IMG/VR virus record: IMGVR_UViG_3300023112_000019
Span: 1 to 52,326 of that record
Length of the DNA: 52,326 nt
Source of the DNA: a virus
Strand: one strand, 5' to 3'
Part shown: positions 1-50,014 of the stretch, piece by piece
How positions within the stretch are numbered: position 1 is the stretch's first letter
Layout of the letters: each line of letters opens with the position of its first letter
Notes under the pieces: model-generated
The model's input: only the letters and a program-made list of their open reading frames with translations
The model's database searches: none
What the model was told of the DNA's origin: nothing
Program-made: the position numbers and the translations under genes

Positions 1-3000
1 TTTTATAAAATCTTTATTTAAATCATCATCAGCTTTGATTTCATCTGTCTTTTTATATTCAGAAAAACCTACTGAACCATCAGTATTCTGGTCATCAGAG
101 TCATCTGGGTAGACAACCTGAATAGAATTAAATACCCCGTCAGAGTTGACCCTCATTCCATTTTCGATGATGTCATGCTCTGCGGTAATCATGTGGTAAT
201 TTCTGTACTGCTTCATTAGCGTCGCAGGGATCTCTCCATTGTTTACTGGCTTGGCAGAGTTTATTGGTGCATCATCCACGTTCGATCTATCAACTTTCCC
301 ATTTGGATAAATGATATCTTTTGGTGGTGCCTTGCCATCAATTAGTCTCTTCTCATTCTTAAAGAGTTCTTTCTTTGAGAAAATTTTAGTAATACTATGC
401 CTTCCTGTTTTGGCTATTGTATAGTCTTTAAGGTTTCTTTCTACGGGACTTAGTGTTGCGGAGAGGTCATCATCTCCGCCCATTATTACTGCTTCTTCAT
501 AAGTTGGTCCTCTATGAAAGTATAGTTGCTCTGGGTAACCAAAAAAGATAGTGCTTCGTCTATCAAAATTTACAACATCACAGATTGTTCCTGGATGTCT
601 TAGTGTTAATTCTTGGAGAACGTCCCATATAGTTTGCTCATAGATAACAAACTTTGATCCTTTAAAGAATGTAAAGATTGCATCTTTGACACCTGCAATA
701 ACTCCAATAGTTCCGCCGATAATAAATCCTGCAGCGGCTCCAATAACTGCACCTGCAACTGTACCAACTACAGGAATGATTGATGCTGGGACGCCAAAGA
801 AGGCACCAATTCCGACACCTCTTCCTGCCCACTTAGTCACCTGATCCCTGAAGGTATCCCAGGACCCAAACAAGGAGGGTGCAAATATATTTTCTACAGC
901 AGTTCGTCCGCCAGCTCCACGCCAGAAGAAAGAACTTTCACCAGTAGTATTCTTTGCATTTATTGTTCCAAAGTTTTGAACCTCAGGAGAGCCATGAAGC
1001 AATTCACTAATCATGTTCTGTGTATTGGAGTTATAAGTAAAGTCATCAGCTACACCAACTCCTTTTAGTTCTTGGACTAGCTCTATTCCATCTCCTTGGC
1101 ATACGATTTCTACAACATCGCCTCCACCAATTTGTGAAACTCTTCCTGAAAATTCTACAGATAAATGATTTGGATCTCCCTCATAACCAAGTCTTAGCTC
1201 AATTCTAGTTCCTTCTTTAAGCATAACATCGTCTAGTTGATTGCTATTTGCTTTTTTGTCTCTACCTTTTGTCTCTCCACCTTTTGGTTTGGTTCTCTGG
1301 GTAGCAGGAAGTTCGTTTTTAAGCTTGCTGGTATTATCTTCAAAGGCTTTATTTACAAGGTCTTCTCTAGTATTGGCTAGTCTTACAACTAATATATCTG
1401 CAGGATTGTGTTTGTCTTTTGCTAGTCGAATATCTACTATTGCATTTATGTCATAGAAGTCTGTAAAATTTCTCCAGATACCACTACCTGCTAGTCTTCC
1501 TAGTCTGTCTTTGTCGACATCACTTAAGCTCCCAACGTCATCTTCTTTAACGTAGAGCTTAAATGTTGGCATTGATCTACGCATTGTGTATGTAGTATCT
1601 TGAAAATTATCTACAGCTGCTTGAGTATTTAGGAATTGTTGAGGACCACTAATCGGTGCTTGGATAAAACCTTTATCAAAGTCTCCTTTCTCTGGTCTTT
1701 CTTTGTCTGCACCTACAGTAATTATATTGGGAGCTGCAGCTGGTGGCCCTGGACTTCCTCTCATATCATCTGATATTTTTTTTGAAGCCTCCTGGTCTGA
1801 TACCTGTTCTGCAAATTGTTCTCCGCCTTTAGCATATCTTCCTTGTACTTTTTCTAATATTTTTCTTTTATATCTATTGTCGCCCTGATCTGACTTGTTA
1901 TAAAAAAAGAAGTCAGGCTGTAGAGTTTGATCTGGTAGCATCATGTCTGGATAGTTTGATTCGTCTGCTGTTAAATTAAAACCCTTAAACTCAGTTAGGT
2001 CTTTCTGATATGTAGTGAACCTTGCATCTTTCTCTTCTGTTCCAGCTGTTATCTTTAGTAAGTCCCACACAACTTCATTAACCATGTCTGAGCTGAAAGG
2101 TCTCATTGAAATTATTTGGTCACCACCATTGATATCGCTATTGGGCCAGATGACAGTTCTTCCTGGGTAATTATCTCTGATGTCACCTTTGACATCTCTT
2201 AGTCTTCTCTCTACAAGATCAGGATCACTTAGGGCTGACTCAACTGTTCCAAAGTCCTTTGCTGACAGAGCATCATTTAAGCTCTCTGTTAATTTTCTTG
2301 CAGCATTAAAATCAGGATCTGAATTTTGTGTATCAACCCCTATCTGGAATGTCTTTCCATTCTTTGCAATTCCATATTTGTCTGCAAGCTTTTGCACAAG
2401 AGAAAGAGAACTTTCATAGACCCTATTAGACGGTCCCTGGTTGGCTTGTTTAATATTAGTATCTATTGCTCTATGGTTTTCTGTTAGTGAGAAACTAAAT
2501 CTTGAACAGAAGGGCATTCCCTCTACTGTTTGACTTTCTGTGTTCTGAATCATGCAACCAAGATATTGATTGGGATCGAATGTTGACATCTTGCCAGTCT
2601 GCTCGTCTAGGACTTGCAGTCGCTGTTCATCATAGTGTTTATACTTGAGAAGCTTAGACATTGGGTGCTTAATAAAGATAGAGTCATTTTTAGCTACCCG
2701 TCTATAGTCAACTGCATTGCGATTAACTAGCTCTATAATACTATTTATTTTCGATAGACGACTGGACGTTCCAACTGGTGCCCCATCATTAAACCCATCT
2801 TTAAGTTCTGCATTTGCAAAAAGATTAAAGACAACGTTTCCATCTGAAGCTCCAAGGAACTGTGCAGTTGGCACGGTGTGCCCAATCAGAGGTATCGAAA
2901 CTGTTTTGGTTTGAAGACTTATTCTTGCTGACTCTACAAGCATTCTTCCAGAGTCTAGTACGGCAGCTGGATTATCAAAGTCTCTTATTCTGTATCTTCT

Positions 3001-3912
3001 GTACCTATAAAGGACTGTTCCTGCCTCCGCATCTGAGGCTTGAAATTCATCAACTGGTAGCCAGCCTTCTTTCTCTGCCTCTCTTAATGCCTCTTTTAGT
3101 TTGGCATCTGTTTCTACTACATATATTTTTTCTGATGGATCTATATCCAGACTAGTTAAAGCATCTATCTGAGCATTAGCATTATCTCTTTCTGCATCAA
3201 TTCTTTTGTACTCTTTATATATCAGCTCTAAGTCATTAGAATCACCTGCAGACATTCCGTTTGTATAAGCGCCAGCTATTGGCCCGCTTCCTTTCTCCCC
3301 AACGTTAGCTAGTGTCCCACTTTCTATAAATTTTGTAAATTGATTATCGGGAACAGCTGTGGCAATTGGGACTCCATTTTCTTCAACCTTTTTAAAAGCA
3401 AAGTCAGGAGAGAAAGGAGTGTAGTTAAACCACTCAAGATGAATCCTTACATTAAACATTCCAGGTTCTCTTGCTTTTGATTCTACATCTATCTGCTTAA
3501 TGACCGCAGCCATGTTCGTTTGGGATACATCTTCTGTTCCAATCCCAACAAATGTCTCGACATCTATTTTCTCTATCTCTCTTCCCACTATCTCTTTTCT
3601 TATCTTTTCATTTTCTATTGAAACAAAAGGACACTTTCTAGCTTGAATAAGTAATGGAGCCAGCTGCTCATTTACCCAGGCTTCTGCCTGTATATCATTT
3701 CCTGTTCTTGCATCATAACCTGTAGCAAAATATGTATCTATAATTATAGAGATAGTTCTACGACCACTCTTCACCCATGTACTGGATTGAGAACGCAGGG
3801 TTGAAACAGAGGCGTTGTGATCCTGTTTAAGGATTGTAATGTTCTTGGGTGGAACACGAAGCTCTATGTCATTGATTCTGAGAGAGCTTGAAGTTAGTGG
3901 TGCTGTTGCCAT
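1..3912 (-). CDS. Giant baseplate-hub-like virion protein, C-terminus beyond window
   Basis: The frame is open from ATG at 3912 to the left edge, giving at least 1304 residues with the C-terminus missing. Around residues 905-950 a pattern of the form xRLGYxGD, then FSGRVxxI, then Vx(I/V)xCxGDG matches the phage late control D / gp27-like hub fold, in which a barrel domain lines the end of the tail tube. A strongly hydrophobic Gly/Ala stretch at about residues 1035-1080 looks like a glycine zipper or a membrane-inserting segment, which is unusual in a hub. The start overlaps the stop of the upstream 1413-residue gene as TAATG, implying coupled translation. Position after the giant tail genes fits a baseplate role. 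The hub assignment rests on pattern resemblance; the rest of the protein is unrecognised. Confidence 0.6.
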   Translation of the reverse strand, partial: MATAPLTSSSLRINDIELRVPPKNITILKQDHNASVSTLRSQSSTWVKSGRRTISIIIDTYFATGYDARTGNDIQAEAWVNEQLAPLLIQARKCPFVSIENEKIRKEIVGREIEKIDVETFVGIGTEDVSQTNMAAVIKQIDVESKAREPGMFNVRIHLEWFNYTPFSPDFAFKKVEENGVPIATAVPDNQFTKFIESGTLANVGEKGSGPIAGAYTNGMSAGDSNDLELIYKEYKRIDAERDNANAQIDALTSLDIDPSEKIYVVETDAKLKEALREAEKEGWLPVDEFQASDAEAGTVLYRYRRYRIRDFDNPAAVLDSGRMLVESARISLQTKTVSIPLIGHTVPTAQFLGASDGNVVFNLFANAELKDGFNDGAPVGTSSRLSKINSIIELVNRNAVDYRRVAKNDSIFIKHPMSKLLKYKHYDEQRLQVLDEQTGKMSTFDPNQYLGCMIQNTESQTVEGMPFCSRFSFSLTENHRAIDTNIKQANQGPSNRVYESSLSLVQKLADKYGIAKNGKTFQIGVDTQNSDPDFNAARKLTESLNDALSAKDFGTVESALSDPDLVERRLRDVKGDIRDNYPGRTVIWPNSDINGGDQIISMRPFSSDMVNEVVWDLLKITAGTEEKDARFTTYQKDLTEFKGFNLTADESNYPDMMLPDQTLQPDFFFYNKSDQGDNRYKRKILEKVQGRYAKGGEQFAEQVSDQEASKKISDDMRGSPGPPAAAPNIITVGADKERPEKGDFDKGFIQAPISGPQQFLNTQAAVDNFQDTTYTMRRSMPTFKLYVKEDDVGSLSDVDKDRLGRLAGSGIWRNFTDFYDINAIVDIRLAKDKHNPADILVVRLANTREDLVNKAFEDNTSKLKNELPATQRTKPKGGETKGRDKKANSNQLDDVMLKEGTRIELRLGYEGDPNHLSVEFSGRVSQIGGGDVVEIVCQGDGIELVQELKGVGVADDFTYNSNTQNMISELLHGSPEVQNFGTINAKNTTGESSFFWRGAGGRTAVENIFAPSLFGSWDTFRDQVTKWAGRGVGIGAFFGVPASIIPVVGTVAGAVIGAAAGFIIGGTIGVIAGVKDAIFTFFKGSKFVIYEQTIWDVLQELTLRHPGTICDVVNFDRRSTIFFGYPEQLYFHRGPTYEEAVIMGGDDDLSATLSPVERNLKDYTIAKTGRHSITKIFSKKELFKNEKRLIDGKAPPKDIIYPNGKVDRSNVDDAPINSAKPVNNGEIPATLMKQYRNYHMITAEHDIIENGMRVNSDGVFNSIQVVYPDDSDDQNTDGSVGFSEYKKTDEIKADDDLNKDFIK

Positions 3913-6900: not shown

Positions 6901-8153
6901 GCAGCAGCCTGCCTATAAACATCTTTCATTAATCTTTCACCAAATTGAGTTCCCTCTCTCTGTAAGTCTATGTGAAAGTTATACATTTTATTTTTTATAC
7001 TAATATTTGATTTGTTTGAGAGAAGGACTTCTTCGGCAGCTAACTCATGAGCTGGTAGTCCTTGTCTCTTTAGAGCCTCTCTATATGTATCCATATTCTT
7101 AACAGTCGCAACTTTGAATTGACCTAATCCAGAGTCTATATCTGGAGTCCAGTTTATAGATGTCTTCTTAGTTCCTTCAAATTTACTTTGTCTATGTAGT
7201 TGATAAGAAGAGATAGAAGCTTCAGCTGCAGGCATTCCTCTTGACAAGAGTGACTCAGGAGTAGCCATTACTCCACCTACAAACATACTTTGATTACCAC
7301 CAGAGTAGCCAGGGTTTCTGGCTATGTCTTTCATCATGTCTATTCTGGCTTCTCTAGTTTTCTGGCCAAATAGATCTACTACAAATTGTTCTTTTCTTAT
7401 TTCTTGCAATCCAACAGCTCCTGGTCCAGACCCTTTTGCCCCTTCCCATATTGCTTTATCTGTTGCTGCTCTTCTTATATCTCTTGGGTCAATCTCCCCT
7501 GCTTTGATTCTACTTAGCTCTTCTTGGTATTTTTTAGTAAGGGCTACATCAATTCCTTCTAGCTCAACTCCTGTTTCTCCATAGCTAAGTAAAGATGATC
7601 GTGCTATATGCGTATTCTTTCCGCCAAGAGTCATTGCTCCCTCAGTATTAACTAATGGTATATCAAATACGAAATCTTTTCCACCCCTAATTCTAATCAT
7701 ATCTGAATATTCAGCACCTGGCTGAGAGTGAGCGAAGGCTTTTACTGAACCGAACTTAGCTTCAACCATATCATATAGGCTGCTAACTTCTTTTCCAAGC
7801 TCTGCACTTCTCCCCTTATAGCCTCCCTCAAGGTACCCTATCTCTTCCATGATACCTCTCTTGCCTTTTAGGAAAGTTGTCTCATAAGATGGTCCCGATG
7901 TTTCTGGTATACCACTTCTAAGAAAGTTACTCATTGTAAGACTTGAGGCAACTGGGTTTACTGCCTTATTAAATGTTGGAGCTACGGCAGCTTGAGGCGC
8001 AATAGATCTTCTAAAGTATCCAGTGGGATCAGCCGATGAAGGAAAGTCTCTAGCTGTTAAGTAAAGACCATATCCAGAACCAGCGATTAGAGTTCCTCTA
8101 CCCAGCACACTGGCTGCGTCTACATCATTTTCAAAGTTAAATTTTTCTATCAT
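3912..8153 (-). CDS. 1413-residue virion protein with RNA-polymerase-like DFDKD motif
   Basis: This 1413-residue protein lies between the tape-measure-position gene and the hub gene; its start overlaps the upstream stop as ATGA. Seen directly: a probable coiled coil at residues 440-500, a Gly/Ser-rich loop at 553-560, a hydrophobic segment near residue 1310, and TREP at 947-950 followed 49 residues later by DFDKDQ (997-1002). In multisubunit RNA polymerase beta-prime an Arg-x-Pro motif precedes the metal-binding loop NADFDGDQ by about 35 residues, and single-chain relatives (QDE-1, YonO, crAss-like gp66) keep three aspartates in the same pattern. Here the usual Gly is Lys. A Lys pair at 874 and 880 (KNLFGGK) could belong to a first barrel. 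The polymerase idea is inference; a purely structural or second tape-measure role is possible. Confidence 0.6.
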   Translation of the reverse strand: MIEKFNFENDVDAASVLGRGTLIAGSGYGLYLTARDFPSSADPTGYFRRSIAPQAAVAPTFNKAVNPVASSLTMSNFLRSGIPETSGPSYETTFLKGKRGIMEEIGYLEGGYKGRSAELGKEVSSLYDMVEAKFGSVKAFAHSQPGAEYSDMIRIRGGKDFVFDIPLVNTEGAMTLGGKNTHIARSSLLSYGETGVELEGIDVALTKKYQEELSRIKAGEIDPRDIRRAATDKAIWEGAKGSGPGAVGLQEIRKEQFVVDLFGQKTREARIDMMKDIARNPGYSGGNQSMFVGGVMATPESLLSRGMPAAEASISSYQLHRQSKFEGTKKTSINWTPDIDSGLGQFKVATVKNMDTYREALKRQGLPAHELAAEEVLLSNKSNISIKNKMYNFHIDLQREGTQFGERLMKDVYRQAAAQGMNSADVAKAMTSPGGLEGLNLDLNKKLRRLEDRKLGIGREIDSLESSISTQRMKGETEGLKSLEKQLAGKRRGLQSINESIKGYGVMGYDTIGNPIKVKGGDLSNTISSIRKNEGVLSIGTESRFKYGVMSKSFSGGGGGKWTVKGTANTPLTAGWMEAIEKYGQGATEAQAEGFANTIFKDVDMISAEAPVKIKGGVLPAREGMTGILSYASGVVESGDAAAIKRLEELGIKGGEFQGSNMSGKEMINKIESWHPNQSTDEIFGGKKHLGSSVSEMVLSADISSTQAGIFGQGRMSDRAAFNLQAMGLGDVLEDFTSRRVGEQSPFAQLGEINAAKNIAGDKAARGVNLADVGEDLGKLLQEDLAGRRNYMQGKERMTINLGKEIGGVDKVTVFASEAMSPYVGASKAGKSPLDRATFDLLASVKNGQDEAFQEAKMKKYQAAFGEVEGAVSKNLFGGKVSGSVYGQAVSSLDGMDRAAQELGKAMKIGDDMQAPLIAMTKSDIGEKFGAQAIKQAEEGRLWGLMTREPIEGTHSSLPVNIRTAEEFGNVGGEKGRIFVSGENASQSLIRRSMFVDFDKDQLNVIAATSEKSRGSIEQFYGYGGQQQSVMGSEFTSSLKRMSAFELKGRAPEGITSLLNQELVGLNAAQKNLESKIGSFSDEFKNIHIGLREQLRPNMGRGAAEAYYLGEDFSHLFVENVLKAKHQGKEALLSGSVDDVLDIFRGSVGTEYARMGKGEKAQSLQRVFDELSFGGKEAGDAIRQSSSEVASMELAEKMGYAKEMKEARGIENARLRAAEVESIMNRATSQRNAYQKISSAKNLENVIESHTLGRDLQASGNYASSIAQRNISKASGYKAMLKDASNAASHFMSKGLKNIAKWGILPTAGIGLAASLMSKPKMMQPTATAGPLHESEKGYANGMGDASAGKTLFQIPEQKFSSFDVRGQADVGTNFDSLRAHASANMKDLNVRLQDHRSHMDKFTIKDMIGKGH

Positions 8154-11100
8154 ATAATTTCACCCATAGCTCTAAGCTCTTGGTAGATCTCATTATTTCG
8201 ATCGTACTCTAAATCGTAGGATACTGTTGGACCTACACTATCCCTCTGAATTATCTGAGGATTTCTAATTCCTGCCTGAACCGCTTGCTTGTAAACCTGT
8301 TCATAGGTAACGCTTTCAGCTAGAGGTTGGAATGGGTCCACTCCCTCTAATGATTCTTCAAGATATGGCTTTCTTCTTAGCCCTCTTAGTCTATCATCCC
8401 ATAGATCATAGTAGTGATATTCCCTACCTGTGTCTATTAGGTATTTTAATTTTACATCCTCAAGATCCACATCAGCTCTCCATCCGATCCAGTCTTCTGC
8501 TGGAAGATTTTCGCTAGCCTGTAATGCTTCTCCTTCTGCTTGTCTTCTTGCTCTAATGGTAGCCATTCTATTGAAGACTTCTTTCTCTAGATCCTGACCT
8601 TCTGCTTGGCTTATATCAAGCTTGCCTTCTGCCATATCATTTAGCAAGACCTTATCCCATTGGGCTATATATAAGTCTTTCATATTGTTAGGCATGATCT
8701 CAAGTAAGCGAGCCTTGTCTTCTGGTCCTGCTTCCTTGAACTGTTCAAAGTACACCTTTTCTCTTTTAGGTAGCGCTGCCATTAATCTAAATTCATTCTC
8801 GTATACATCTGTGCCGGCTAAGGTTCTACCCGCCTTGTTATGGAAAGTTCTTGCTTTGCCTTCTGACCCTTGAGCCATTGCCATTCTTTCATGGCGCTTA
8901 TTTTTAACGTACTCTATCTTATCGAAGTAACTCTCTATTTGTCTAGCATCTCTTACTGCGTCTGGGATTCTATCTATCCCTGCCATGTTGGCAACTGTTG
9001 TAGCAAAAGGTTTAATAAAATCTTCTATTGGTCTCTGCCAAAGTTTAAACTCTTTACCGTATATTGATTCTTCATAATCTGTCATAGCAGATGAAGGAGG
9101 AAGGAGTTTATGAGCAGGAGCGATAGGGCTTAATTGCTCTAGTGGATTTGCTCTTGCTATATCAACTAGTGCTGCACCGTATCTACCAAGGACGCTTTGA
9201 TCGTATACGTCGTCTCTAAAAGACTTTCTTTTACGCTTATCCTCAAGCTGCTCTTCTGTTCTTTGAAAGATCTCTAATTCATAATCTGTTGGATCATGTG
9301 CTTCTAATTCTTTTCTTGCACTTCTGAACTCTCTAGAATATGGAGCAATATCTGCAAGTATTTTATATCTATGTATTAATGGGTAATCTGCAGGATTAAC
9401 TCCCTCAAGTTCTTTATACCTGGCTGCGTATCCTCTTCCTGGTAATCTGTATTCACCTTCTTGAACTTTAGTAAATGGATCACCTTGCTTGAAGTTCTTG
9501 TAGTAGTCTTCTCCAGGCATCCAGTCAGGCATATCATTGGCTATAGGATTTACATACTCTGTTGTATAAGGTCTCTTAGGAATGAAACGCCTGATAGGCT
9601 CTGTCATACCAAGGAAACCACCGAGGTTTAAATCCCAGAATTTCCTACGAGTGCTATCTATATCTGCAGATGATTGAAGAATAGGTGTATGTTCGAATAC
9701 ATCTTGCTCTCCTGTCACTGCTTGTTTAATAGCCGAGGCCACAAAACCACGTAGACCTACAGCTTCATAGGTTGTATAGTATTGTTGTTTAATTTGTTCA
9801 GCGGCACTATATGGTGTGACCGCATCTTCTGGAGGAAGTGCTCCTGCAATCTTTTTAGATGGAGCATACTTTCCTGATCCACCATGCAGGTGATCTCCTC
9901 TATGTCTCCCTTCAAATATTTCTGGATGCATTAGTACTGGTGGCTTCATTACTCTACCAACAGTCCATTCGTATGCGGCTCCAAATAGACCGAGGTCTTC
10001 TCCGGTTGAACCAGCTATAGGATAGGGTCTATCCTCGTAGTGCATCTTCTCTAACCAATAAGGATCAGCTAGGTCTCTTACAAATTTGCCAACAGGAGAA
10101 ATATCTTCGCCATCGTATATTGACTTGTCTGTAGGTCTATCTAGTATTCTGTTGTACCAGTTAGGACGATAGTAATCTGTCTTGGATCCTTCCCATGGGG
10201 TCGTTCCAAATTCCCACCAGCGAGCTTTCTTGATAGCAACTTCTTTACCACCAAGGTATTCTTCATCTAGTTCTGCTACTGATTTTTCTGAACCTAGACC
10301 AAAGAGTAAGAATGGCGCAGCTAATGCAGCCATCGCTAGCCCTCCATGCTTCCCCCATCTTAAGGCTCTTGTATAATTGCCTCCCATAGTTGGGATTTTT
10401 CTTAGACCTGCCGCCATTGCTTTCTCGGCCGTCTTTGACTTAATCATTGCATCGTATCTAGCCGGGCCAGCTGCAGCTCTTGCTTCTTCAAATATACCAG
10501 CACCCATTCCGAGTGCAGTTCCTGTTATCATCCCAGACAAGGTAAACCCTAGCCATGGTTTGACTCCAGTTAATCCAGGTGCTTTTTCTTCTGCGTATTT
10601 CCTGATCTCTGTTAAGCCAGAGGCTTCAGATAGTCCAGCATAAGTCATGTGTGCTACACGAGCACCCTCTGCTAGAACTCCTGTTATCCCGGCTTTGCCT
10701 GCAACGCTATCTTCTGGTGCAACCTGTCTAGTCATCCAGTTCAGTGTTCCGAACACTGCTGGTAAGCCAATAAGTAAAGGAAGAGCTTTTGCTGCATGTC
10801 TTCCTAGTATCTGAGGAAGAGTTCCTATTAATTGTTTCTCTCCTCCAACACCAAACTTAGGCAATCTTTTTGTAATAGACTGTACAGTATCTGTTACTCC
10901 TCCAGTTTTAATATTAGGAAATAGATCCCTAAAGGCTTTAACTGGATCGTCAACTAGACGTAAGTATTTAGATAATGTTTCATGACCATAAGCATGAGCG
11001 GCACGGAATGCTGCTTGTCTCTTTGTCTTCCCACCACCAATTAAGATTTCGTGCTCTCTACCAACTCCAGCTATATTAAATGTATGTTCATACGATTTTG

Positions 11101-13660
11101 TAAACTGAGTCTTAGAAGTACTAATATTTTTATCGTGTATTGCTTGGTATGCTCTAGCTTCTTTTAATAGAAGTTCTCTTCCGCCTGTTCCTGTTACACC
11201 ATAAAGCTTTCCGCCCTCGAATGACATTTTGGTAAACTTCTGGAAGTCAGCCCCTTTGCCAATACCGAAAGTCTTCTTGTTTCTTTCTGTAAGCTGCATA
11301 AAATATGTTTCATAACCATACCCTACAGACTGTTTAAAGCTTCTATTTTTAACTTTATTTAACTGGTCTCCAACTGGATCAAAAGCTTTTGTTCCTAGGT
11401 CTACCTCAAAGTTCATATCCTTTAAGATACTTGGAGACATCATTGTACTCAAACTGAAAGCTTTTGGTATTCCACCTAGCCCTAGTTCGAATCTTCTTAA
11501 TGCGTTATATGCTACGTCTTTATATTTTGCGTTTTGTCTTCCCAGAGCTTCTGGGCTTATCCCCATATACGAGAACTTGTTCAGGTCAAGAGGGTTGCCT
11601 TTTATGCTATAGACATCTCTATCCCATAGGAATCTTGCTGCCCCAACCATTGCTGCTGCAGTAGCTATGCCACTCCAGGCTACAGGCGTTGGGTCTTCGT
11701 GAGCTGTTGCAAGTGAGCCTTTAAATCCTGAACCAAATTCTGTTGTGTTCTTTCTTTGCTTACCAAACCATCCATGAGGCATGGCGTTGATACTATTATA
11801 TGCAGCACCTTTTCCAGAAAACTGATTAGTTATTTTGTATAGTGCACCCTGCCTGTATGACTCTTCTTCGTTATATCCGTCTTCCCACATTTCTGCGGCA
11901 CCTGCAGCCAGGTGTTTGTTTCTTCCTAACCTAAGAAGATCCGTTAATGAGTTGAATGTTAAATCTTTTCCTTGTCCTGCAGAAAATGCTTTCCAGTCTT
12001 TGAAAAAGTCATGCCCCCAAATTCCAAGGCCTTCTCTCTCTGCCTTCCCTCCAGCAGCCATAAATGTAGCTCTGTCTACTGCGTCTTTATGTTGAGGTCC
12101 AAATTCAAGAGACGAAGCATAACCTTCTGCGGCTAGTTTTAAGTTAAGGTTTTCGTTGCCCTTATAGATAACACCAAGATATCTACCATAGGTTTTTTCA
12201 GTAGGATCTACTATTAGCCTAAGGTCTTCTTTGTCCCCTAGCATTTCTTTAAATCTATCTGTAGCAGCTTGCCCCAGAGGTTGCTCTTGACCAACTCTAT
12301 ATGGTCCTAGTGGATCATTAGCATGGGTTGTTTCAGGAGCATCAATTCCAGACATTCTAATTACGACATCTGGTTCAGATGAGCCTTTCTTGTTCAAGAC
12401 AAGAGTATCGGCATCATCAACCATAACGTTATATTCGGATAGTTTAACTTCTCTTAATTGTTTCCTTTTCTTATTCAGCCCTTGAAGAGTTGCCTGGTCT
12501 CCAAAGTACATCAAGTCTAGACGACTAATCTCTCCATGCTGGACTTTCTCCTGGCGTCTGTCTCTATCTTTATTTATGGCCTCAGCCATTAGCGGGTCTT
12601 TTAATGCTGTAGACATTCTATTGATTCTGTTCATATTGAAACCAGAACCAAAGTCTGTTATGTGATTTCTTGATTGGCCGAACCAACCATGATTCAATCC
12701 TTCTATTGTATTATAGTCATCATCTTTGCTTGAGATGCCTGCTGTCTTACCTAGTAGGTATCCAGCTGCCGCAACACCACCAGCAATAGCAGCATATCTC
12801 CCCAGCCCTTTTGGAAGTTTGCCAGCAAGTTTATTTACCTTGCTTACTTTGATTCCAGCTTTAGCTTCTGCTTGTAAAAATATTTCTGTACTAGAAAGGC
12901 CATACTCTCCAAGCCTAAAACCTTGAGAGCTTTTAGCATTAAGCATTTCATTTCTATAAGATGCGTAATTAGTTTTAAGCATTGTTCCAGAGAACAACTT
13001 CGCCCCGTAGGAATTTGCAAGTTTCTTTCTCACATTAAGAATGCTTCGAGTCTCTTGTTCTACCTTTAGTGCTGTTGGATCCTTCCAGGCTTCAAGCCAT
13101 TTGCCTAGCCCCTTCGGAACATTACCAGCTTTAATCTGCTCAATGCTATGGATTAATCTTCTATTTAAATTCTTATTAGTACCAGAACCAAATGACTCTT
13201 TTAAAAACTGCTTATGTATACCTACAGATATATCAGCCTTTGGCGATATGATTCCTTTCTCTTGAGCAATAGCGTTCAGAGATTTTGCCAGCTCGATAGT
13301 ACTGATGGTACCACCGCCAGCCTTGCCTTGCATTACCATCTGCTCGTAAACACGCATCTGTCTGATACGGTCTCTTTGCCTTGCAACCTGCTTGCTCATT
13401 CTATTTAAACCAACATCCTCTAGGTCTTTCATCCTTTGATGTCGGTTTTCTTTTATGATTGCTTGATAGGCAGTGTCAGGAGTTCCAGTCTTTCTTAGAT
13501 TTATATCATAAGAAAAGAGGTTGGCTTTATTAGATGTTAGATTAAATATGTCTCTTGAGGAGGCTGATTTGTTTGAGTTCAAGACGAACGAGTGCTGCGT
13601 GGGCAGATAAGCCCCCGTAGCTCTACGGTTGGAATTTAATTTGCTTGAGTTTCTAGCCAC
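8150..13660 (-). CDS. Giant tail protein in tape-measure position with staphylococcal-nuclease domain
   Basis: This 1836-residue protein directly follows two chaperone-like genes, the usual place of the tape measure protein. Residues about 405-548 form a staphylococcal nuclease (thermonuclease) domain. The catalytic set is complete: D418 in DDADT, R435, D440 and E443 in GIDAPE, and R493 in YGR, equivalent to D21, R35, D40, E43 and R87 of the S. aureus enzyme. A 26-residue motif containing HGWFG and FGSGF occurs twice, at 316-341 and 621-646, flanking the nuclease. Hydrophobic Gly/Ala segments lie at about 288-306, 660-677, 956-972, 1036-1056 and 1106-1122, compatible with membrane insertion during ejection. 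The last 700 residues are polar. The nuclease is well supported; the tape-measure role rests on position, length and hydrophobic segments. Confidence 0.75.
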   Translation of the reverse strand: MARNSSKLNSNRRATGAYLPTQHSFVLNSNKSASSRDIFNLTSNKANLFSYDINLRKTGTPDTAYQAIIKENRHQRMKDLEDVGLNRMSKQVARQRDRIRQMRVYEQMVMQGKAGGGTISTIELAKSLNAIAQEKGIISPKADISVGIHKQFLKESFGSGTNKNLNRRLIHSIEQIKAGNVPKGLGKWLEAWKDPTALKVEQETRSILNVRKKLANSYGAKLFSGTMLKTNYASYRNEMLNAKSSQGFRLGEYGLSSTEIFLQAEAKAGIKVSKVNKLAGKLPKGLGRYAAIAGGVAAAGYLLGKTAGISSKDDDYNTIEGLNHGWFGQSRNHITDFGSGFNMNRINRMSTALKDPLMAEAINKDRDRRQEKVQHGEISRLDLMYFGDQATLQGLNKKRKQLREVKLSEYNVMVDDADTLVLNKKGSSEPDVVIRMSGIDAPETTHANDPLGPYRVGQEQPLGQAATDRFKEMLGDKEDLRLIVDPTEKTYGRYLGVIYKGNENLNLKLAAEGYASSLEFGPQHKDAVDRATFMAAGGKAEREGLGIWGHDFFKDWKAFSAGQGKDLTFNSLTDLLRLGRNKHLAAGAAEMWEDGYNEEESYRQGALYKITNQFSGKGAAYNSINAMPHGWFGKQRKNTTEFGSGFKGSLATAHEDPTPVAWSGIATAAAMVGAARFLWDRDVYSIKGNPLDLNKFSYMGISPEALGRQNAKYKDVAYNALRRFELGLGGIPKAFSLSTMMSPSILKDMNFEVDLGTKAFDPVGDQLNKVKNRSFKQSVGYGYETYFMQLTERNKKTFGIGKGADFQKFTKMSFEGGKLYGVTGTGGRELLLKEARAYQAIHDKNISTSKTQFTKSYEHTFNIAGVGREHEILIGGGKTKRQAAFRAAHAYGHETLSKYLRLVDDPVKAFRDLFPNIKTGGVTDTVQSITKRLPKFGVGGEKQLIGTLPQILGRHAAKALPLLIGLPAVFGTLNWMTRQVAPEDSVAGKAGITGVLAEGARVAHMTYAGLSEASGLTEIRKYAEEKAPGLTGVKPWLGFTLSGMITGTALGMGAGIFEEARAAAGPARYDAMIKSKTAEKAMAAGLRKIPTMGGNYTRALRWGKHGGLAMAALAAPFLLFGLGSEKSVAELDEEYLGGKEVAIKKARWWEFGTTPWEGSKTDYYRPNWYNRILDRPTDKSIYDGEDISPVGKFVRDLADPYWLEKMHYEDRPYPIAGSTGEDLGLFGAAYEWTVGRVMKPPVLMHPEIFEGRHRGDHLHGGSGKYAPSKKIAGALPPEDAVTPYSAAEQIKQQYYTTYEAVGLRGFVASAIKQAVTGEQDVFEHTPILQSSADIDSTRRKFWDLNLGGFLGMTEPIRRFIPKRPYTTEYVNPIANDMPDWMPGEDYYKNFKQGDPFTKVQEGEYRLPGRGYAARYKELEGVNPADYPLIHRYKILADIAPYSREFRSARKELEAHDPTDYELEIFQRTEEQLEDKRKRKSFRDDVYDQSVLGRYGAALVDIARANPLEQLSPIAPAHKLLPPSSAMTDYEESIYGKEFKLWQRPIEDFIKPFATTVANMAGIDRIPDAVRDARQIESYFDKIEYVKNKRHERMAMAQGSEGKARTFHNKAGRTLAGTDVYENEFRLMAALPKREKVYFEQFKEAGPEDKARLLEIMPNNMKDLYIAQWDKVLLNDMAEGKLDISQAEGQDLEKEVFNRMATIRARRQAEGEALQASENLPAEDWIGWRADVDLEDVKLKYLIDTGREYHYYDLWDDRLRGLRRKPYLEESLEGVDPFQPLAESVTYEQVYKQAVQAGIRNPQIIQRDSVGPTVSYDLEYDRNNEIYQELRAMGEII

Positions 13661-13669
13661 TAGCTTCCT

Positions 13670-14290
13670 CTAGTTCTGTCTTTTACTAAAGTCACCTGAA
13701 GGTGCGCCAAATTCTTCTTCGCGCAGGTTTGCATTTACTTTTGTAAAATCAACAGATGTCTCAGTATATTCTTGTAACCTATCGAATATTTTACCACTTC
13801 CATCGGTAGGCTGGCTAGCTGGGGTCTGGAATTCAAACTCTCTTTTAAGTATAAATTCAGCTTGAGCTAAACGTCTAATCAAAACAGGCCAAGTCATCTT
13901 CTCTAATGTCTCTGGCAGATAAGAAGGAAAAGCTTCACAAATAGTTATAATTGCTTGCTCTCTTGCGTCGGCAAGTAATTCTCTTGCATCTCCTAATTGA
14001 ATGTTTACACTATCAATTGATTGAGGACAAGAAAGATATAGGATAAGTTGAGATACAGTAGTGATAAGGCCCGCAGGTAAGTAATCCTTTCCGTTACCAA
14101 AGGAGTGCTCGACGACACAGTCGTCCCAAATACGATCCTCTAGATCGAACTTGAACTCAGGGTAGGCCTGCATGATATATCGCATGGCTTTGTAGGACTC
14201 ATAGTCTAGTAAACTAAACATGACTCTACCTTCAGTCGTTGCGAAAAGATACAGGTCCCTATGTTTCTTAAGGACCTTATCGAAATCCAT
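13670..14290 (-). CDS. Putative tail assembly chaperone, second gene of pair
   Basis: This 206-residue protein is read just before the giant tape-measure-position gene (9-nt gap). Its ATG overlaps the stop of the 171-residue gene as TAATG. Many tailed phages encode two chaperones here, the second often reached by frameshifting. I find no usable slippery site: the frame of this gene has a TAG four codons upstream of its own ATG and the codon pair there does not re-pair. Separate initiation by coupling is therefore more likely. The protein is mostly polar and helical by appearance, with no catalytic motif. Function is inferred from position only. Confidence 0.55.
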   Translation of the reverse strand: MDFDKVLKKHRDLYLFATTEGRVMFSLLDYESYKAMRYIMQAYPEFKFDLEDRIWDDCVVEHSFGNGKDYLPAGLITTVSQLILYLSCPQSIDSVNIQLGDARELLADAREQAIITICEAFPSYLPETLEKMTWPVLIRRLAQAEFILKREFEFQTPASQPTDGSGKIFDRLQEYTETSVDFTKVNANLREEEFGAPSGDFSKRQN

Positions 14291-14805
14291 TACAGTTTTC
14301 TAACTAGCTGCATTGCCATTTCAGGGGCGATAAAGTTAGAGACTTGTAGAATCATGTCTCTGGCGCTGTCAATAGAGCCGGCTGTTAAAACATTGATGTT
14401 TTGCTGATCCAGCCTAGGCCACAGTGTAGCTTTCATTACAATAGCTTCTGCTTTCTTGTCATCTGGAATCTTTTGAATCTTCTGCATTAGAGCTCTCCAC
14501 TCTAAGCGCTTCAGAGGCCTGAATACGAAGTTCTCATGCTCGCTGAGACTCATTAGGTACACGTCACCTATCTGGGCCTTCATCTGCTCAATCTCTTCGT
14601 CTGAGGGTCTGTTCTCAAGTTCCTTAAAGGTCTGGATAACAAAGTCTTGCTCCATCTGCTTTTGTTGGATCTTGGCCAGTAATTCTTTCTCTTCATCTGT
14701 AAGGCTAGCGATTACTGGATCTTCTTCCTCATATGACTGTTCTGCGAAATCTTCTTGAGCTAAATGAGCATCAAGATCTACGTCTGCGTAATTTTCTTCT
14801 GACAT
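14290..14805 (-). CDS. Putative tail assembly chaperone, first gene of pair
   Basis: This 171-residue protein has an acidic N-terminal 40 residues, then a core with FVFRPLKRLEW and a later IVMKATLWP ... AGSIDSARDMI segment. That resembles chaperones in which an Arg-containing RPLxRxEw strand precedes a Cys/Thr-x-WP helix and a terminal helix ending in SNF or SGF. The gene lies between the tube-like genes and the giant tail protein. Its SD is GGGAGA seven to ten bases before ATG, and a sigma70-like promoter lies just upstream at 14831-14859. The family assignment is by pattern memory and context. Confidence 0.6.
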   Translation of the reverse strand: MSEENYADVDLDAHLAQEDFAEQSYEEEDPVIASLTDEEKELLAKIQQKQMEQDFVIQTFKELENRPSDEEIEQMKAQIGDVYLMSLSEHENFVFRPLKRLEWRALMQKIQKIPDDKKAEAIVMKATLWPRLDQQNINVLTAGSIDSARDMILQVSNFIAPEMAMQLVRKL

Positions 14806-17213: not shown

Positions 17214-19337
17214 TTATTGTTTCGCCAGAGAAGTAATAATCGTAATTTTACGTAGCTCGAAAGCTGGTACGATTGTTAATTCTACTGTTGCATCACCTTG
17301 AATCTCTTGAGCAGTTGTTGCAGAAACTCTAGCTTCAAATCGTTGGATGTTTCCAAGTTCTTGTAAAGCAGCAAGTTCTCTTACGATACCTGTTTCAAGT
17401 GCAATTCTAGCAAGCGCTGTGTTAGGCTCACCGATATAAGGTTCAGCTACGGTTCTAACGGAATCAATTGCGTCAGCAATAATTCTCATCGTTGTTAATC
17501 TTGTAAAGTCACTGTCGTCTCTAGCAGCAGTTGGAGCATCAGAAATTCTTAATCTATTTTCTTTTGCCTTAATTGCAACATACTTTAGTTTCGCTAATGA
17601 ATTTAGTTTTGTTTTACTAACTCTAAATGGAGCTCTTACACCTGAAACAATCTTGTTGGTAGGCGCGCTAGCAACAGGTAGTCCAGAGTAGAATCCACCG
17701 TAGAATCCAGCCATATTAGCTTGGTATCCAAAACCAGTTTCGTCAGTTGAATTAAAGAATGTTAAGTACATAGCTGTTAAAGAAATGTATTTACCAATAT
17801 CAATTTTGTGACCATTTCTATCTGTTAAGATATCTACATCTGCATCAAATTCTGCTGACGTTGGTAGCCATCCAGATTCTGTAGCAAAGAAGCCTTTCTC
17901 TCTAACTAGAGTTCCAGCAACAAATTTGTTACCTAGAAGTCCTGAGCCATCAAGAACAACATCTCCTGTTGCGTCTGTAGTTGCTTCCTTCCCTACCCAA
18001 AGAGAAATATCTTTAGCTGAGAATGATGCTGGTGCTTTGGTACCAATAACACCTGTTACTTCATTATCGTTTACCGATAGTGAGAAACAAAAGTTTGCTA
18101 GTTGGTAAGCAAAGTTAACTTCATGGAAGTCATCTGATGATAAAGCTGATCCATCAATACCTGTAGTAGCGGAGGCTGCGCCTACACCTGCAGGAAAGAC
18201 TTCTGCTGATCCGTCATCGTTAGTATCCCAAAAGTAAAAGAATTCACCTTGATATTCTTCTACGTGTAGTAGACCAAGTCCATCACCAGCTGAGCCAGCA
18301 ACAGGATATCTACGTCCTACGTCTAAAGAAATATCAGAAGATAAAGTAATAGTGTCGCCATCTGCAACGTTTTTATCATCTAGATATACGTTTTGTGGAA
18401 TGACAATATCAACTTCATCATTTTCTAATGATCTATATGTTTCAGCTAGTGATTCATAAAGTTTCATTTTAGATGGACTAAGTCCGTCTGACCCATCTTC
18501 AAGGTTGTGTGCTGTGTCCGCGTCATATGTAAAGTCAACAGTGATGGCCTCTCCACCAGTTAGTAACGATCCAAGGTCAACGTTAATTTGATCAACGCCA
18601 AGTGTCCCTGTTCCTACTAATAGTGCCCATTCTGTATCTACGAGTTCTACTCCATCTACATATACTACGTGACTTCCTGCATTCGTTTCTGCCTGAGTTA
18701 GGTCGAATGCTTCTGGTCCAGCTGCTGCCATAGCACCAACCGCTTCTGCGGCTACTGATACTGTGTCTTGTGCGACGTCTCTTAAAGAAACGAAAGCGTT
18801 TGCTGTACCAAGGTCAACACCAGCATCGAAAGTTCCAGAGACGATCACTTCTCCGGTATCAATGGGTTGCCCACCTGGGTTGTTATCATATACTAAAAGA
18901 TCTAAAGCGTTTTTAACCTGTAGTCTGCCTTCTACGGCATTAGGACCAACAGTCGCTGGGGTCTGATAGAATACGAAGTAAAGATCAGCTGCAGAGCCGT
19001 CTTTAATTAAAGTTGTGATTGCCGTTGGATCTGTAACTTGGTTATCAGTTCCTACGCCATAAAGTGTTGCTGCTTGTGCATTGATCCTGTGAAGAAACGT
19101 ATTTGTTGAGCCACCAGCTAAAGTTTCATACATACCTCTGACAAGAGTTCCCTCTTTGCCAAATTCGTTTTCACTTTCTTGTGCTCTCACTACTTGCTTC
19201 TTAAGACCAGCTACCCCTTGAGAAGCGGTCCCCAGAACTAGTACGGCAGGTGCTGCAGAAGCTTCGCTTATCTGTAGTCCACCATCTTGTAGTTCATGGA
19301 TAATGCCAGGCAGGTTTTTAAACTTATCTAGAGCCAT
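17214..19337 (-). CDS. Tail sheath protein
   Basis: This 707-residue contractile sheath subunit forms the outer tail tube that shortens on infection. The N-terminus has a PAVLVLGTASQG strand and an EFGKEG ... GMYETLAGG region, typical of the sheath handshake arm and first domain. The C-terminal domain has RLTTMRIIADAIDSV, helices with ALARIALETGIVRELAAL and a closing strand FELRKITIITSL, the sheath family's conserved end. I start at ATG 19337, eight bases after AAGGAG, rather than at the in-frame TTG two codons earlier. The middle (about residues 150-450) is a long Asp/Gly-rich beta insertion, probably surface domains. The order sheath-tube supports the call. Confidence 0.9.
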   Translation of the reverse strand: MALDKFKNLPGIIHELQDGGLQISEASAAPAVLVLGTASQGVAGLKKQVVRAQESENEFGKEGTLVRGMYETLAGGSTNTFLHRINAQAATLYGVGTDNQVTDPTAITTLIKDGSAADLYFVFYQTPATVGPNAVEGRLQVKNALDLLVYDNNPGGQPIDTGEVIVSGTFDAGVDLGTANAFVSLRDVAQDTVSVAAEAVGAMAAAGPEAFDLTQAETNAGSHVVYVDGVELVDTEWALLVGTGTLGVDQINVDLGSLLTGGEAITVDFTYDADTAHNLEDGSDGLSPSKMKLYESLAETYRSLENDEVDIVIPQNVYLDDKNVADGDTITLSSDISLDVGRRYPVAGSAGDGLGLLHVEEYQGEFFYFWDTNDDGSAEVFPAGVGAASATTGIDGSALSSDDFHEVNFAYQLANFCFSLSVNDNEVTGVIGTKAPASFSAKDISLWVGKEATTDATGDVVLDGSGLLGNKFVAGTLVREKGFFATESGWLPTSAEFDADVDILTDRNGHKIDIGKYISLTAMYLTFFNSTDETGFGYQANMAGFYGGFYSGLPVASAPTNKIVSGVRAPFRVSKTKLNSLAKLKYVAIKAKENRLRISDAPTAARDDSDFTRLTTMRIIADAIDSVRTVAEPYIGEPNTALARIALETGIVRELAALQELGNIQRFEARVSATTAQEIQGDATVELTIVPAFELRKITIITSLAKQ

Positions 19338-19349
19338 GTCCAATTCTCC

Positions 19350-45552: not shown

Positions 45553-47508
45553 TTAAAAACTTGTTCTTCTTGTCCTCATCCCACCTCTTTTCGCAAATTG
45601 CTTTCTAGCGTCTTTACGTCTCGGGACTTGGTAATCATCATTATTAAAATCTTCTGGACTATTCATAATCCTTCTTTGTGTTTTTCTACTATCGGTTGAG
45701 GCCGGAAGTGGTTGGACAATGGATAAACCGTATTCTGTCCTGACCTTTGGCCCCTGAGGGGAGAGGTTTTGATTCCTAGAAGTAGCCGCCGCGGTTCCGC
45801 CTAACGTTGACTGTTCTAAGCCTTCGCCTATTCTACCGCTAAAAGTTATGTCTGTCGAGTAAGTTCTGTTAGTAAATTCAGAAAGTTCCATCTGGAAAGC
45901 TAATAGCGCAAGAACCATTGCATCAAGATCATGATCGCCGTTTGTTGCTTCGTATACTGGAACTCCAGATGCGGTAACTTTACCAACCATGTATCCACCA
46001 AGTTGATCCATTAAAATGTCATCAAATTCAGAGATCTTGATCTGTTGTTGCTCAAAGCGTCTAACAGCATTCTCTATCATGTATGGCTTCATCATTTTCT
46101 TTATAGGTTCTCCTGATATAGGATCGAACACTTCTACTTTGGAAGATGAATTAATACCAACTATGTTTTTTAGCCTCTCATCAATTCTGGCGTGCTCGTG
46201 ATCTTCACGCAGTGCGCTTAATCCGAATTGCTTTATAACTTCTATTTGTGTGGCTCCATATCCTTCATCAACGTAGACGAAGTCTGGCTGCCATAATCTG
46301 TTTAATTTAATTAGTTCTTGAATTGCCGCAGTCTGTGTCCATCCTGCTTTCTGAACAGTTTGTTTATCTACGATTCTAAAGATACTATGCTTTGGATCCC
46401 ATCCGACAACACACAACTTAGTTCCGTTCTCAACATCATTCCAGTCAATACCGATTGAGTATGTCCAACCGCTCTGAGGAATCATCTCTTGATATTTATA
46501 TTCTTCTTTGGCCGCATGCACATATTTGTGCTGGAATACACCTGTTGCAGCCTCACCGAACTCAGCAAGGATCTCATGTTGCCAACCTGTCTCTGTTTTA
46601 TAAAACTGACGTAGTTCCGCTTCCATCTTTGGACCCCATGCGGGATTCGCAGTAGATGCGTAGTAGAACTCTTTGAAACTCATGTTCTCTTGGCAGAAAC
46701 TGTAGAAGTATTCTCTACGACCTGAAGGAGTAGAAGATGCAAGGATTCGCACTTCACTATGCTCCATCATTAGGGCTACAACTGATTCAATATCTTCTGA
46801 TGAAAGGTAATCCATTTCGTCTAGAATAATAAAGTCAGCTTTCTGTCCACGGACAGCTTCAGCACCTTTAGCACCTGAAGAGAAACCTACAACTTTCGCA
46901 CCATTATACAGTTCAAGTACATGGTGAGGCGTTGCAACATTTTTCTTTACTTCAGCTTTTAATTCTGGGTTTCTATCTAGTAGTTCGTTGATTCTATTGA
47001 AGATCAGCTTAACCTGAGATAGATATGGTGTAAGAACAAGGATAGTTGAGAATCCGTCGACATACATCTGCGCGTCTTCGTCCCATCTTTGAATCTTTGG
47101 TGAATTTGTAAAAAGGTAATGCAAGATAGCAATAACCATCGCTTCTGATTTACCAAGACGACGCCCGAGTCTAAGAACCTTTCTTTTACTGGAGCATCTT
47201 AATATTAGTGATTGATATTCTTGTTTAGACTTAGAAACTCTAGGTTTCCAGTTTAGATTTGTTTCAGCCCACTCAATTGGATCATAGAGTGTTTGAGCAA
47301 GTTTTACTTCATCTTCTTCCCAGCCTTTTGTGACTATGTCTTGATTTGGTATAAACTTATTGTCTCCAGGTATGCCTTTACAATCAATGATGAACTCATT
47401 CTTCTTATGTGTTGGTTTCCCTGTTATTTCTGAAATTGGACCATCTTTAAGTGCAAGTCTTGTATCCTTGCAGTTCGTGCAATAGTCGTGTAGAACTTCA
47501 CATCCCAC
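45553..47508 (-). CDS. Terminase large subunit (packaging ATPase/nuclease)
   Basis: This 651-residue DNA packaging motor starts at GTG 47508, with SD AGGGAGA. Motor domain: Walker A-like GRRLGKSE (115-122), Walker B FIILDE (226-231) and the coupling motif SSTPSG (258-263). RNase-H-like nuclease: IGIDW (D355), VDEGYG (D414), and GDHDLDA (D525, D527, D529). The N-terminus has C3, C10, C13 and C43, which could bind a metal and is unusual. The C-terminal 90 residues are loose, basic and Arg-rich. It translocates genomic DNA into the prohead through the portal and cuts it. This is the anchor for identifying the region. Confidence 0.95.
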   Translation of the reverse strand: MGCEVLHDYCTNCKDTRLALKDGPISEITGKPTHKKNEFIIDCKGIPGDNKFIPNQDIVTKGWEEDEVKLAQTLYDPIEWAETNLNWKPRVSKSKQEYQSLILRCSSKRKVLRLGRRLGKSEAMVIAILHYLFTNSPKIQRWDEDAQMYVDGFSTILVLTPYLSQVKLIFNRINELLDRNPELKAEVKKNVATPHHVLELYNGAKVVGFSSGAKGAEAVRGQKADFIILDEMDYLSSEDIESVVALMMEHSEVRILASSTPSGRREYFYSFCQENMSFKEFYYASTANPAWGPKMEAELRQFYKTETGWQHEILAEFGEAATGVFQHKYVHAAKEEYKYQEMIPQSGWTYSIGIDWNDVENGTKLCVVGWDPKHSIFRIVDKQTVQKAGWTQTAAIQELIKLNRLWQPDFVYVDEGYGATQIEVIKQFGLSALREDHEHARIDERLKNIVGINSSSKVEVFDPISGEPIKKMMKPYMIENAVRRFEQQQIKISEFDDILMDQLGGYMVGKVTASGVPVYEATNGDHDLDAMVLALLAFQMELSEFTNRTYSTDITFSGRIGEGLEQSTLGGTAAATSRNQNLSPQGPKVRTEYGLSIVQPLPASTDSRKTQRRIMNSPEDFNNDDYQVPRRKDARKQFAKRGGMRTRRTSF

Positions 47509-47529: not shown

Positions 47530-48045
47530 TTAGTAGGCTCCTGGCTGCCAGATCTGTTTTTTCATCATAGTTTCGGTTAATCTTACTGCAGATTGTTGTT
47601 TAGCTTTGGCTGTATCGTATTGTAGCTTTTGAGCTAGTGTTGCATTTCTGTGAGTAACGTTTAGTCCTTGGTTTGAGCTTAGTGTAGAATAACCGAGCCC
47701 TGCTCCTGCCATTCCTCCTATTGCTCTACTTCCGCTACCCATTCTATTCAGTCTCATTTGAAACTGACCTACAGCATCTCCGATCTTGCCTTTACGGTTC
47801 TGAGACATTCCTGAAGCTCCCAGTCTTGATAAGCCTTTGTTTATTAACTTATCTCCTCCGACTCTTGCTCCTGATATTGCACCTGCGCCAAGTCGTCCTC
47901 CGACACCCATGGCTGCACCTTTCGCTGCTCCACCCAGTATGTCCCCACCTGAATAAGCTGCTCCTGCCCCACCTGCTATTGCGCCTGCTGCTCCATAGGC
48001 TGCAGTTGATGTGGCTAGATTTCTTATTGCATTCATTCTACTCAT
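47530..48045 (-). CDS. Gly/Ala-rich small protein, 171 residues
   Basis: It has an Ala/Gly zipper in residues 15-65 (AAYGAAGAIAGGAGAAYSGG; GGRLGAGAISGARVGG) and basic residues elsewhere, with a Gln-rich helix at the end (KLQYDTAKAKQQSAVRLTETM). It is one of five related-looking small genes upstream of the terminase; its ATG overlaps the HNH stop as ATGA. GxxxG-rich helices can insert in membranes. It could be an internal or ejected virion protein. No family is recognised; the gene position is well fixed. Confidence 0.5.
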   Translation of the reverse strand: MSRMNAIRNLATSTAAYGAAGAIAGGAGAAYSGGDILGGAAKGAAMGVGGRLGAGAISGARVGGDKLINKGLSRLGASGMSQNRKGKIGDAVGQFQMRLNRMGSGSRAIGGMAGAGLGYSTLSSNQGLNVTHRNATLAQKLQYDTAKAKQQSAVRLTETMMKKQIWQPGAY

Positions 48046-48398
48046 TTCAGTCTCCTAGTTCTTCTCTTTCTACGTAGTGTTGGTCTCGGTTTATTCTCTC
48101 TTGCGAGCTTCATAAACTTTCTGACGTATCTCTTGTGCCCTTCGTCTTCTTGATGAATGCTCTTGTGGCATTTACCGCAAAGGGTTATTCCGTTAGTAGA
48201 CAAGAACGTTAGTTCTGGAAATACGGACTTTAGTTTAATATGGTGGGCCTCAATGTACCCGCCAACTTTTTCACATAGCTGGCACTTAAATCTATCTCTT
48301 TTGAAAACTCTGGTACGCCAATCTCTATATTTCTTTGTTCTGTAAATCGTACCTTTCTTTATTTGTTTTCTTATTTTCTCTTTTGAGTCTTTTTTCAT
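48042..48398 (-). CDS. HNH endonuclease, 118 residues
   Basis: This compact HNH nuclease has a first Cys pair (CQLCEK, residues about 39-44), EAHHIKLK with the HH core, then NGITLCGKCHKSIH closing the zinc-supported beta-beta-alpha metal fold. The rest is highly basic, with a C-terminal tail RRKRRTRRL. HNH genes often lie beside terminases and can cut DNA for packaging or act as mobile elements. Overlaps of 4 and 1 nt with its neighbours mean that, if mobile, it has been tightly integrated. Confidence 0.8.
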   Translation of the reverse strand: MKKDSKEKIRKQIKKGTIYRTKKYRDWRTRVFKRDRFKCQLCEKVGGYIEAHHIKLKSVFPELTFLSTNGITLCGKCHKSIHQEDEGHKRYVRKFMKLARENKPRPTLRRKRRTRRLK

Positions 48399-49620: not shown

Positions 49621-49656
49621 TATTTTTCCTTTTATTAATCCTCTAATCTTAAGGAA

Positions 49657-49685
49657 ATACTACCACAAGGCTTTAAAGTAGTCAA
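49657..49685 (-). promoter_or_regulatory. Sigma70-like promoter of HNH homing gene
   Basis: On the minus strand TTGACT (49680-49685), 17-base spacer, TAGTAT (49657-49662). Both boxes are close to consensus. The predicted start near 49650 precedes the ATG at 49620 by about 30 bases with SD AAGGAAAA. It is the only close gap in this cluster, so the mobile gene seems to carry its own promoter. Confidence 0.6.
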
Positions 49686-49717
49686 CCCCCTTATTCTAAA
49701 GGGAAAAAATTAATCCA

Positions 49718-50002: not shown

Positions 50003-50014
50003 ATCAATAACCTC

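Follow-up and report, generated by a model that had tools for sequence, protein, structure and literature searches.

A staphylococcal nuclease module between linker repeats in a probable virion protein of a 0305phi8-36-like phage

Peptidoglycan hydrolase domains occur in the tape measures and in the hubs of phage tails. In phage 0305phi8-36, the tail genes follow the order tail chaperonins (orf143/144), orf145, tape measure (orf146) and hub (orf147), and the hub of BtI1, a phage of the same lineage, has been reported to carry a staphylococcal nuclease (SNase) domain (PMC2147016). The authors of that study proposed that enzyme domains are transferred within the genome into virion proteins (Hardies et al. 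2007, PMC2147016). Polyvalent proteins are very large phage proteins in which kinases, nucleases and other enzymes form recombining modules and which are thought to be co-injected with the DNA (Iyer et al. 2017, PMC5512222); the term 'staphylococcal nuclease' is absent from that paper. In the literature on ejected nucleases in tape measures, we found no precedent beyond the work of Hardies et al. (PMC2147016).

Here, we analysed a virus record of 52,326 bases, a single 52-kb fragment that is hereafter referred to as the window. It encodes a SNase domain, which is of a type that cuts both DNA and RNA, within a very long protein, named protein A. As in enzyme-bearing tape measures and hubs, a catalytic domain is inserted in a probable structural protein of the tail line; those enzymes act on the cell wall, whereas the expected substrate of the window module is nucleic acid. 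The window has the gene order and the protein family of the 0305phi8-36/BtI1/ME3 lineage. However, the SNase of BtI1 and similar phages is located in the hub (orf147 type), while that of the window is in an orf145-type protein and belongs to a distinct SNase subgroup. The linker that bounds it is used repeatedly by relatives, and the protein A of phage ME3 has no SNase. A SNase in a virion (hub) protein of this lineage and the proposed intragenomic transfer are already known from 2007 (PMC2147016). What appears to be new, as far as the literature was searched, is the linker, the module and its home beside the terminase, its relocation into protein A, a second insertion and the conservation in 48 of 48 modules.

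The carrier gene and its neighbourhood

The window phage has a contractile tail, since it encodes a tail sheath protein (Table 1). The genes for the sheath, the tube-type protein, protein A and the hub have homologues in the 0305phi8-36-like lineage and stand in the same order, which places the phage in this lineage. The named phages related to it, Acinetobacter phage ME3, Moorella phage MTATph1 and Bacillus phage KLEB27-3, are all relatives of 0305phi8-36. The open reading frame of protein A starts with GTG, as it does in the nearest relative, L001.

The sequence-only reading had placed protein A at the position of the tape measure, which is most likely one gene off. The C-terminal half of protein A matches ME3_35, and the first gene of the window matches the hub. 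The annotation notes of ME3 pair ME3_33 with the chaperonin YP_001429634, ME3_35 with YP_001429636 and ME3_37 with the hub YP_001429638, and ME3_35 therefore corresponds to orf145 by the numbering in PMC2147016; 0305phi8-36 itself was absent from the phage collection searched. By synteny, protein A is probably the orf145-type gene that precedes the tape measure, and the tape measure would be the 1413-residue product of the next gene, at the orf146 position. Protein A as the tape measure itself was rejected as the likeliest identity on the same synteny. A tblastn search with the probable tape measure against the phage collection gave no match. The model of the protein A core, which is of moderate confidence only, had no structural match in the PDB, and its matches to tape measures in BFVD were at chance level (E above 0.2), with none in the PDB. 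In BFVD, it neighbours a few viral proteins to which no function is assigned; one of them bears the title 'Large polyvalent protein associated domain-containing protein'. ME3_35 is annotated as 'virion structural protein', citing 0305phi8-36, and gp031 of KLEB27-3 as 'structural protein'; from these homologues we infer that protein A is in the virion of the window phage.

Some observations concern the same genes in relatives. The protein at the tape-measure position of MTATph1 (L004 15339-19265) has a marginal match to an RNase T exonuclease (24.2 bits, cut-off 24), possibly a second nuclease in the tail line. In record G112, protein A (2411 aa; L140 2-6082 (-) = L177 5685-12917 (+)) contains an intein-like insertion with a LAGLIDADG match, and has two linker copies that are 16 aa apart. 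In KLEB27-3, gp032 (L005 13304-13939) lies between the two halves of the protein A gene, gp031 and gp033, as expected of an intron-borne endonuclease; an HNH-type gene of the window (49030-49620) is 36% identical to it.

Table 1 Features of the window with their coordinates.
Feature	Coordinates	Strand	Basis or remark
Baseplate hub homologue, ME3_37-like	1..3912	minus	similarity; runs off the record
Probable tape-measure gene, 1413 aa	3912..8153	minus	synteny only
Protein A (P0001), 1836 aa	8150..13660	minus	nuclease carrier; probable orf145/ME3_35-type virion protein, between tail chaperones and tape measure
Protein A core, aa 872-1836	8153..11047	minus	common to ME3_35 and to the majority of the other relatives found
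Hydrophobic segment after motif 2, aa 660-678	11627..11683	minus	flanks the module
Linker motif copy 2, aa 612-652, YNSINAMPHGWFGKQRKNTTEFGSGF	11705..11827	minus	motif; the single copy of L001 sits here
Complete insert, aa 347-611 (pre-domain, SNase and post-domain)	11828..12622	minus	absent from the colinear L001 protein
SNase domain, aa 405-548	12017..12448	minus	profile match, PDB-chain alignment, predicted fold
Catalytic R493 (= R87)	12182..12184	minus	alignment
Catalytic E443 (= E43)	12332..12334	minus	alignment
Catalytic D440 (= D40)	12341..12343	minus	alignment
Catalytic R435 (= R35)	12356..12358	minus	alignment
Catalytic D418 (= nuclease D21)	12407..12409	minus	alignment
Linker motif copy 1, aa 311-346, YNTIEGLNHGWFGQSRNHITDFGSGF	12623..12730	minus	motif
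Hydrophobic segment before motif 1, aa 291-309	12734..12790	minus	flanks the module
Two genes at the tail-chaperone position	13670..14805	minus	position only
Tail sheath protein	17214..19343	minus	homologous to sheath genes of the lineage
Terminase large subunit	45553..47508	minus	borders the slot
Slot between gene X and terminase	47530..50377	minus	only small genes (one HNH-type); in relatives, a multi-domain linker/SNase protein
Gene X	50378..51145	minus	orthologue of the gene abutting the multi-domain module protein upstream in relatives

The nuclease domain and the inserted module

The SNase domain is the sole Pfam match in protein A (PF00565, aa 434-548, 55.8 bits, E 7e-15, cut-off 21); in the genome-scan search the same match reached 60.6 bits. 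A phmmer search against PDB chains aligned it nearly end to end with S. aureus nuclease, and residues D418, R435, D440, E443 and R493 pair with the five catalytic positions. Both results bear out the sequence-only reading, which had described all five thermonuclease catalytic residues within an 1836-residue protein of the tail cluster. It had also expected an OB-fold for residues 405-548, and the prediction agrees: in an AlphaFold2 model of aa 290-690, made from an input alignment of 12 related modules, the SNase domain has pLDDT values mostly of 81-96. The best PDB matches listed by Foldseek are all S. aureus nuclease, with a probability of 1.00 and TM scores, by target, of 0.70-0.81. The linker copies and the hydrophobic segments on both sides of the domain have pLDDT below 50 and no confident structure. 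Fold and catalytic residues are thus those of the staphylococcal nuclease family (PF00565), while the domain of the window sits between linkers in a giant phage protein. When compared with S. aureus nuclease, the related modules have an additional conserved loop (HANDPL-type) that follows E443, and conserved helices on both sides of the domain.

The earlier suggestion of a survey of homologues for conservation of the catalytic residues was followed up, and none that lacks them was found. In all of the 48 non-redundant modules found (below 95% identity), the five residues are invariant, together with D416 and Y491, which are equivalent to D19 and Y85. The dN/dS values (NG86) between related modules are mostly 0.02-0.3, and in many pairs dS is close to saturation. 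The invariant residues and the low dN/dS argue for a working enzyme, and catalytic competence of the SNase of protein A is well supported. A chance or degenerate domain was rejected on the Pfam match, the predicted fold and the invariant catalytic residues.

Comparison with the nearest relative indicates that the SNase of protein A is an inserted module. The protein A of L001 is colinear, with 49-61% identity, and has no SNase at the same site; PF00565 has no match in the whole L001 record. In L001, the N-terminal part passes to the core through one copy of YNTIEGLRHGWFGESRKHLTDFGSGY, while in the window one copy lies on each side of the nuclease. The two copies of the window are clearly diverged at the DNA level and the base composition of the insert equals that of the rest, so that this is no fresh event, and a very recent duplication of the linker was rejected. 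An assembly artefact was also rejected, given that the frame is open through the insert, that the flanks are homologous to those of other carriers, and that the protein A family has a second carrier. The frame of the L001 protein A is itself broken, into 892 and 625 aa, near 10,650 (10600-10700), about 1.6 kb from the insertion site, by a mutation or an assembly error.

The linker and the usual home of the module

The linker is about 42 aa long. Pattern and profile scans of viral contigs gave the consensus FSGKDDxYNTIEGLxHGGxAxxxRKxxTDFGSGYxG, the motif of the window being 'GKDDxYNTIEGLxHGGxAxxxRxxxTDFGSGY', and showed that very large proteins of the lineage contain it in one to six copies. 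Protein A is also encoded in 25 of the 40 linker-bearing records. Besides SNase, the linker proteins have domain matches, often weak ones, of kinase-like, ABC1/APH-like, RNase H/DEDD-like and other types. In a second scan, in which the patterns were SNase peptides from an alignment that included linker flanks, 43 of 46 distinct carriers had the linker at 15 bits or more, all at most 132 aa from the SNase, and shuffled controls had none. The linker lies within 110 aa of the SNase in 28 carriers, against a permutation mean of 15.3 and a maximum of 26 in 5000. A tblastn search for the linker in cultured phages, with 50,697 phage records, gave no match, its power being limited with so short a query. 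In none of the proteins scanned did the linker match a Pfam family.

Protein-kinase-like, ABC1 or APH-like matches lie between or beside linker copies in L130 7773-12893 (-), L121 9274-13140 (-), L117 6864-11252 (-), L109 5926-10845 (-) and L129 420-3512 (+), several of them below the curated cut-off; these domains are possible virion-delivered kinases. A DEDD-exonuclease-like motif (e.g. FDLETTGL) is found at or near the N-terminus of the terminase-adjacent proteins of L206, L210, L166, L178, L109, L156, L179 and L182. At many linker loci (L147, L149, L153, L154, L156, L160 and others), the contig often stops a few kb from the linker-protein gene, which may reflect genome ends or a hypervariable region.

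As judged from gene positions, the module usually resides in a multi-domain protein whose gene, in related phages, closely precedes that of the terminase. In nearly all carriers, gene X abuts the carrier gene upstream, and some 1-3 kb separate the carrier gene from the terminase gene downstream. The terminase-adjacent proteins of L109, L117, L121 and L130 have SNase, kinase-like and RNase H/DEDD-like matches, several of the kinase ones below the cut-off, while the window protein has SNase only. These carriers may resemble polyvalent proteins (PMC5512222), as they are large and modular and seem to combine several enzymes. In 22 records, protein A was located and the terminase-adjacent protein matches the linker strongly; in none of them does protein A have the linker. 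The linker is in protein A in the window, G001, G013, G014, G016, G017, G019 and G112, and no record has both placements. The slot between gene X and the terminase contains no linker protein in the A-type records read (the window, G013 and G016). In the window, small Gly/Ala-rich proteins occupy this slot (48398-49030, 49718-50002 and 50015-50377), two of which begin with MNKAFN(A/T)IKSTL and are paralogue-like.

The pre-domain (aa 347-433) and the post-domain (aa 561-611) of the insert match those of the terminase-adjacent carriers, with E values of 5e-9 and 6e-9. The SNase of the window is 28-44% identical to terminase-adjacent or linker modules and 22-26% identical to free-standing SNases, and in a tree it groups with a terminase-adjacent module (support 86/92), the deep forks being weak. 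Hub SNases were rejected as the source, with 23-25% identity and long separate branches. As for a cellular source, the matches listed include only generic cellular SNases, whose best segments are 22-38% identical.

The module has a further location in the protein A family. The protein A of L334, which is 45-49% identical to that of ME3, carries the same module with the pre- and post-domains and all catalytic residues, without the linker. Its insertion site differs: the module (aa 582-950) separates two core blocks and occupies a variable loop that is free of it in the ME3 protein. Protein A has thus received the module on at least two occasions. A PF00565 search of the records of 80 loci found with the protein A core profile gave no SNase in other A proteins; it gave hub-sized frames with SNase in ME3 and G023 and, in about seventeen records, short, apparently free-standing SNase genes, most of about 137 aa. 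In G018, the SNase is in a separate 1843-aa protein, flanked by two linker copies. SNase domains are also present in the hub proteins of ME3, MTATph1 and G023, and the hub ME3_37 combines an M23 peptidoglycan peptidase with SNase. Taken with the hub SNases of ME3, MTATph1, G023 and BtI1, the two entries into protein A suggest that these proteins have been favoured repeatedly as sites for a nuclease.

Possible roles of the nuclease

The explanation that we favour, with somewhat better than even confidence, is that an active nuclease module, recombined at the linker, is carried in the virion and delivered at infection, where it most likely cuts host DNA. Protein A would be a virion protein of a 0305phi8-36-like contractile-tailed phage, and would have gained the module by recombination at the repeated linker from a multi-domain, polyvalent-like protein of the terminase-adjacent type. 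The nuclease, catalytically competent, would travel with the particle, be delivered at infection with the genome or ahead of it, and cut nucleic acid on the far side, where host DNA would be the most likely target and competing or extracellular DNA a less likely one. Since a complete nuclease domain is found in a virion-type protein, phages of this lineage probably carry a nuclease into the cell. The hydrophobic segments that flank the module are counted in favour of this explanation. We infer the ejection, the activity and the target of the nuclease; of the readings, a role at DNA entry needs the fewest assumptions.

S. aureus nuclease requires millimolar Ca2+, and the bacterial cytoplasm is without such levels, so that periplasmic or extracellular action fits at least as well as action in the cytoplasm. 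The main rival, which we regard as unlikely, builds on this requirement of SNase enzymes: the nuclease would act outside the cytoplasm, in a Ca2+-rich space, where it would cut extracellular, surface or periplasmic DNA, clearing the path or weakening competitors. The ME3 hub pairs SNase with a peptidoglycan peptidase, as tail-tip enzymes do, and the hydrophobic segments could set the module at a membrane. However, the usual carrier lies beside the terminase and not beside baseplate or fibre genes, and its kinase-like and exonuclease-like domains suggest intracellular targets.

Because the home of the module adjoins the terminase, a role in packaging is the second rival. The substrate would then be phage DNA, with the nuclease trimming the genome ends or removing packaging intermediates that have stalled, and the terminase link would reflect this. 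A usual carrier encoded so close to the terminase in nearly all relatives would also suit a packaging or maturation role, and the DEDD-exonuclease-like N-terminus of some carriers fits it as well. However, the module moved to protein A twice and SNases are found in hubs, all far from the terminase gene, and SNases are largely sequence-nonspecific, which makes them poor end-processing enzymes; we consider this role quite improbable.

Just as improbable is that the delivered nuclease destroys the DNA of co-infecting or resident elements, the phage's own DNA being modified or protected. DNases of polyvalent proteins have been proposed to act in this way (PMC5512222). Exchangeable modules on conserved linkers resemble conflict systems as well, but genes for DNA modification were searchable within the 52-kb fragment only. 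That the domain is a folded OB-type spacer or binding domain in which catalysis is irrelevant, as could be suggested by the SNase-fold domains without catalytic residues in eukaryotic SND1/Tudor-SN, is very improbable in view of the seven residues that are invariant in such divergent modules.

A wider proposal about the linker is put forward tentatively, and with clearly less confidence than delivery of the nuclease at infection. The DFGSG linker may be the conserved junction of a modular effector system, in which interchangeable enzyme modules (nuclease, kinase-like, exonuclease-like) would be swapped by linker recombination between terminase-adjacent and tail-line virion carriers and delivered into the host, with the linker as a signal for processing, unfolding or docking.

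Within one phage lineage, at least three families of entry-line or packaging-adjacent proteins carry a strictly conserved nuclease; in two of them it is the module described here, and in the hub it is a SNase of other lineages. If the nuclease of protein A is delivered, it would be a virion-borne enzyme that acts from the first moment of infection, and the questions would then be how the packaged genome is spared within the particle and how a folded domain passes the tail tube.
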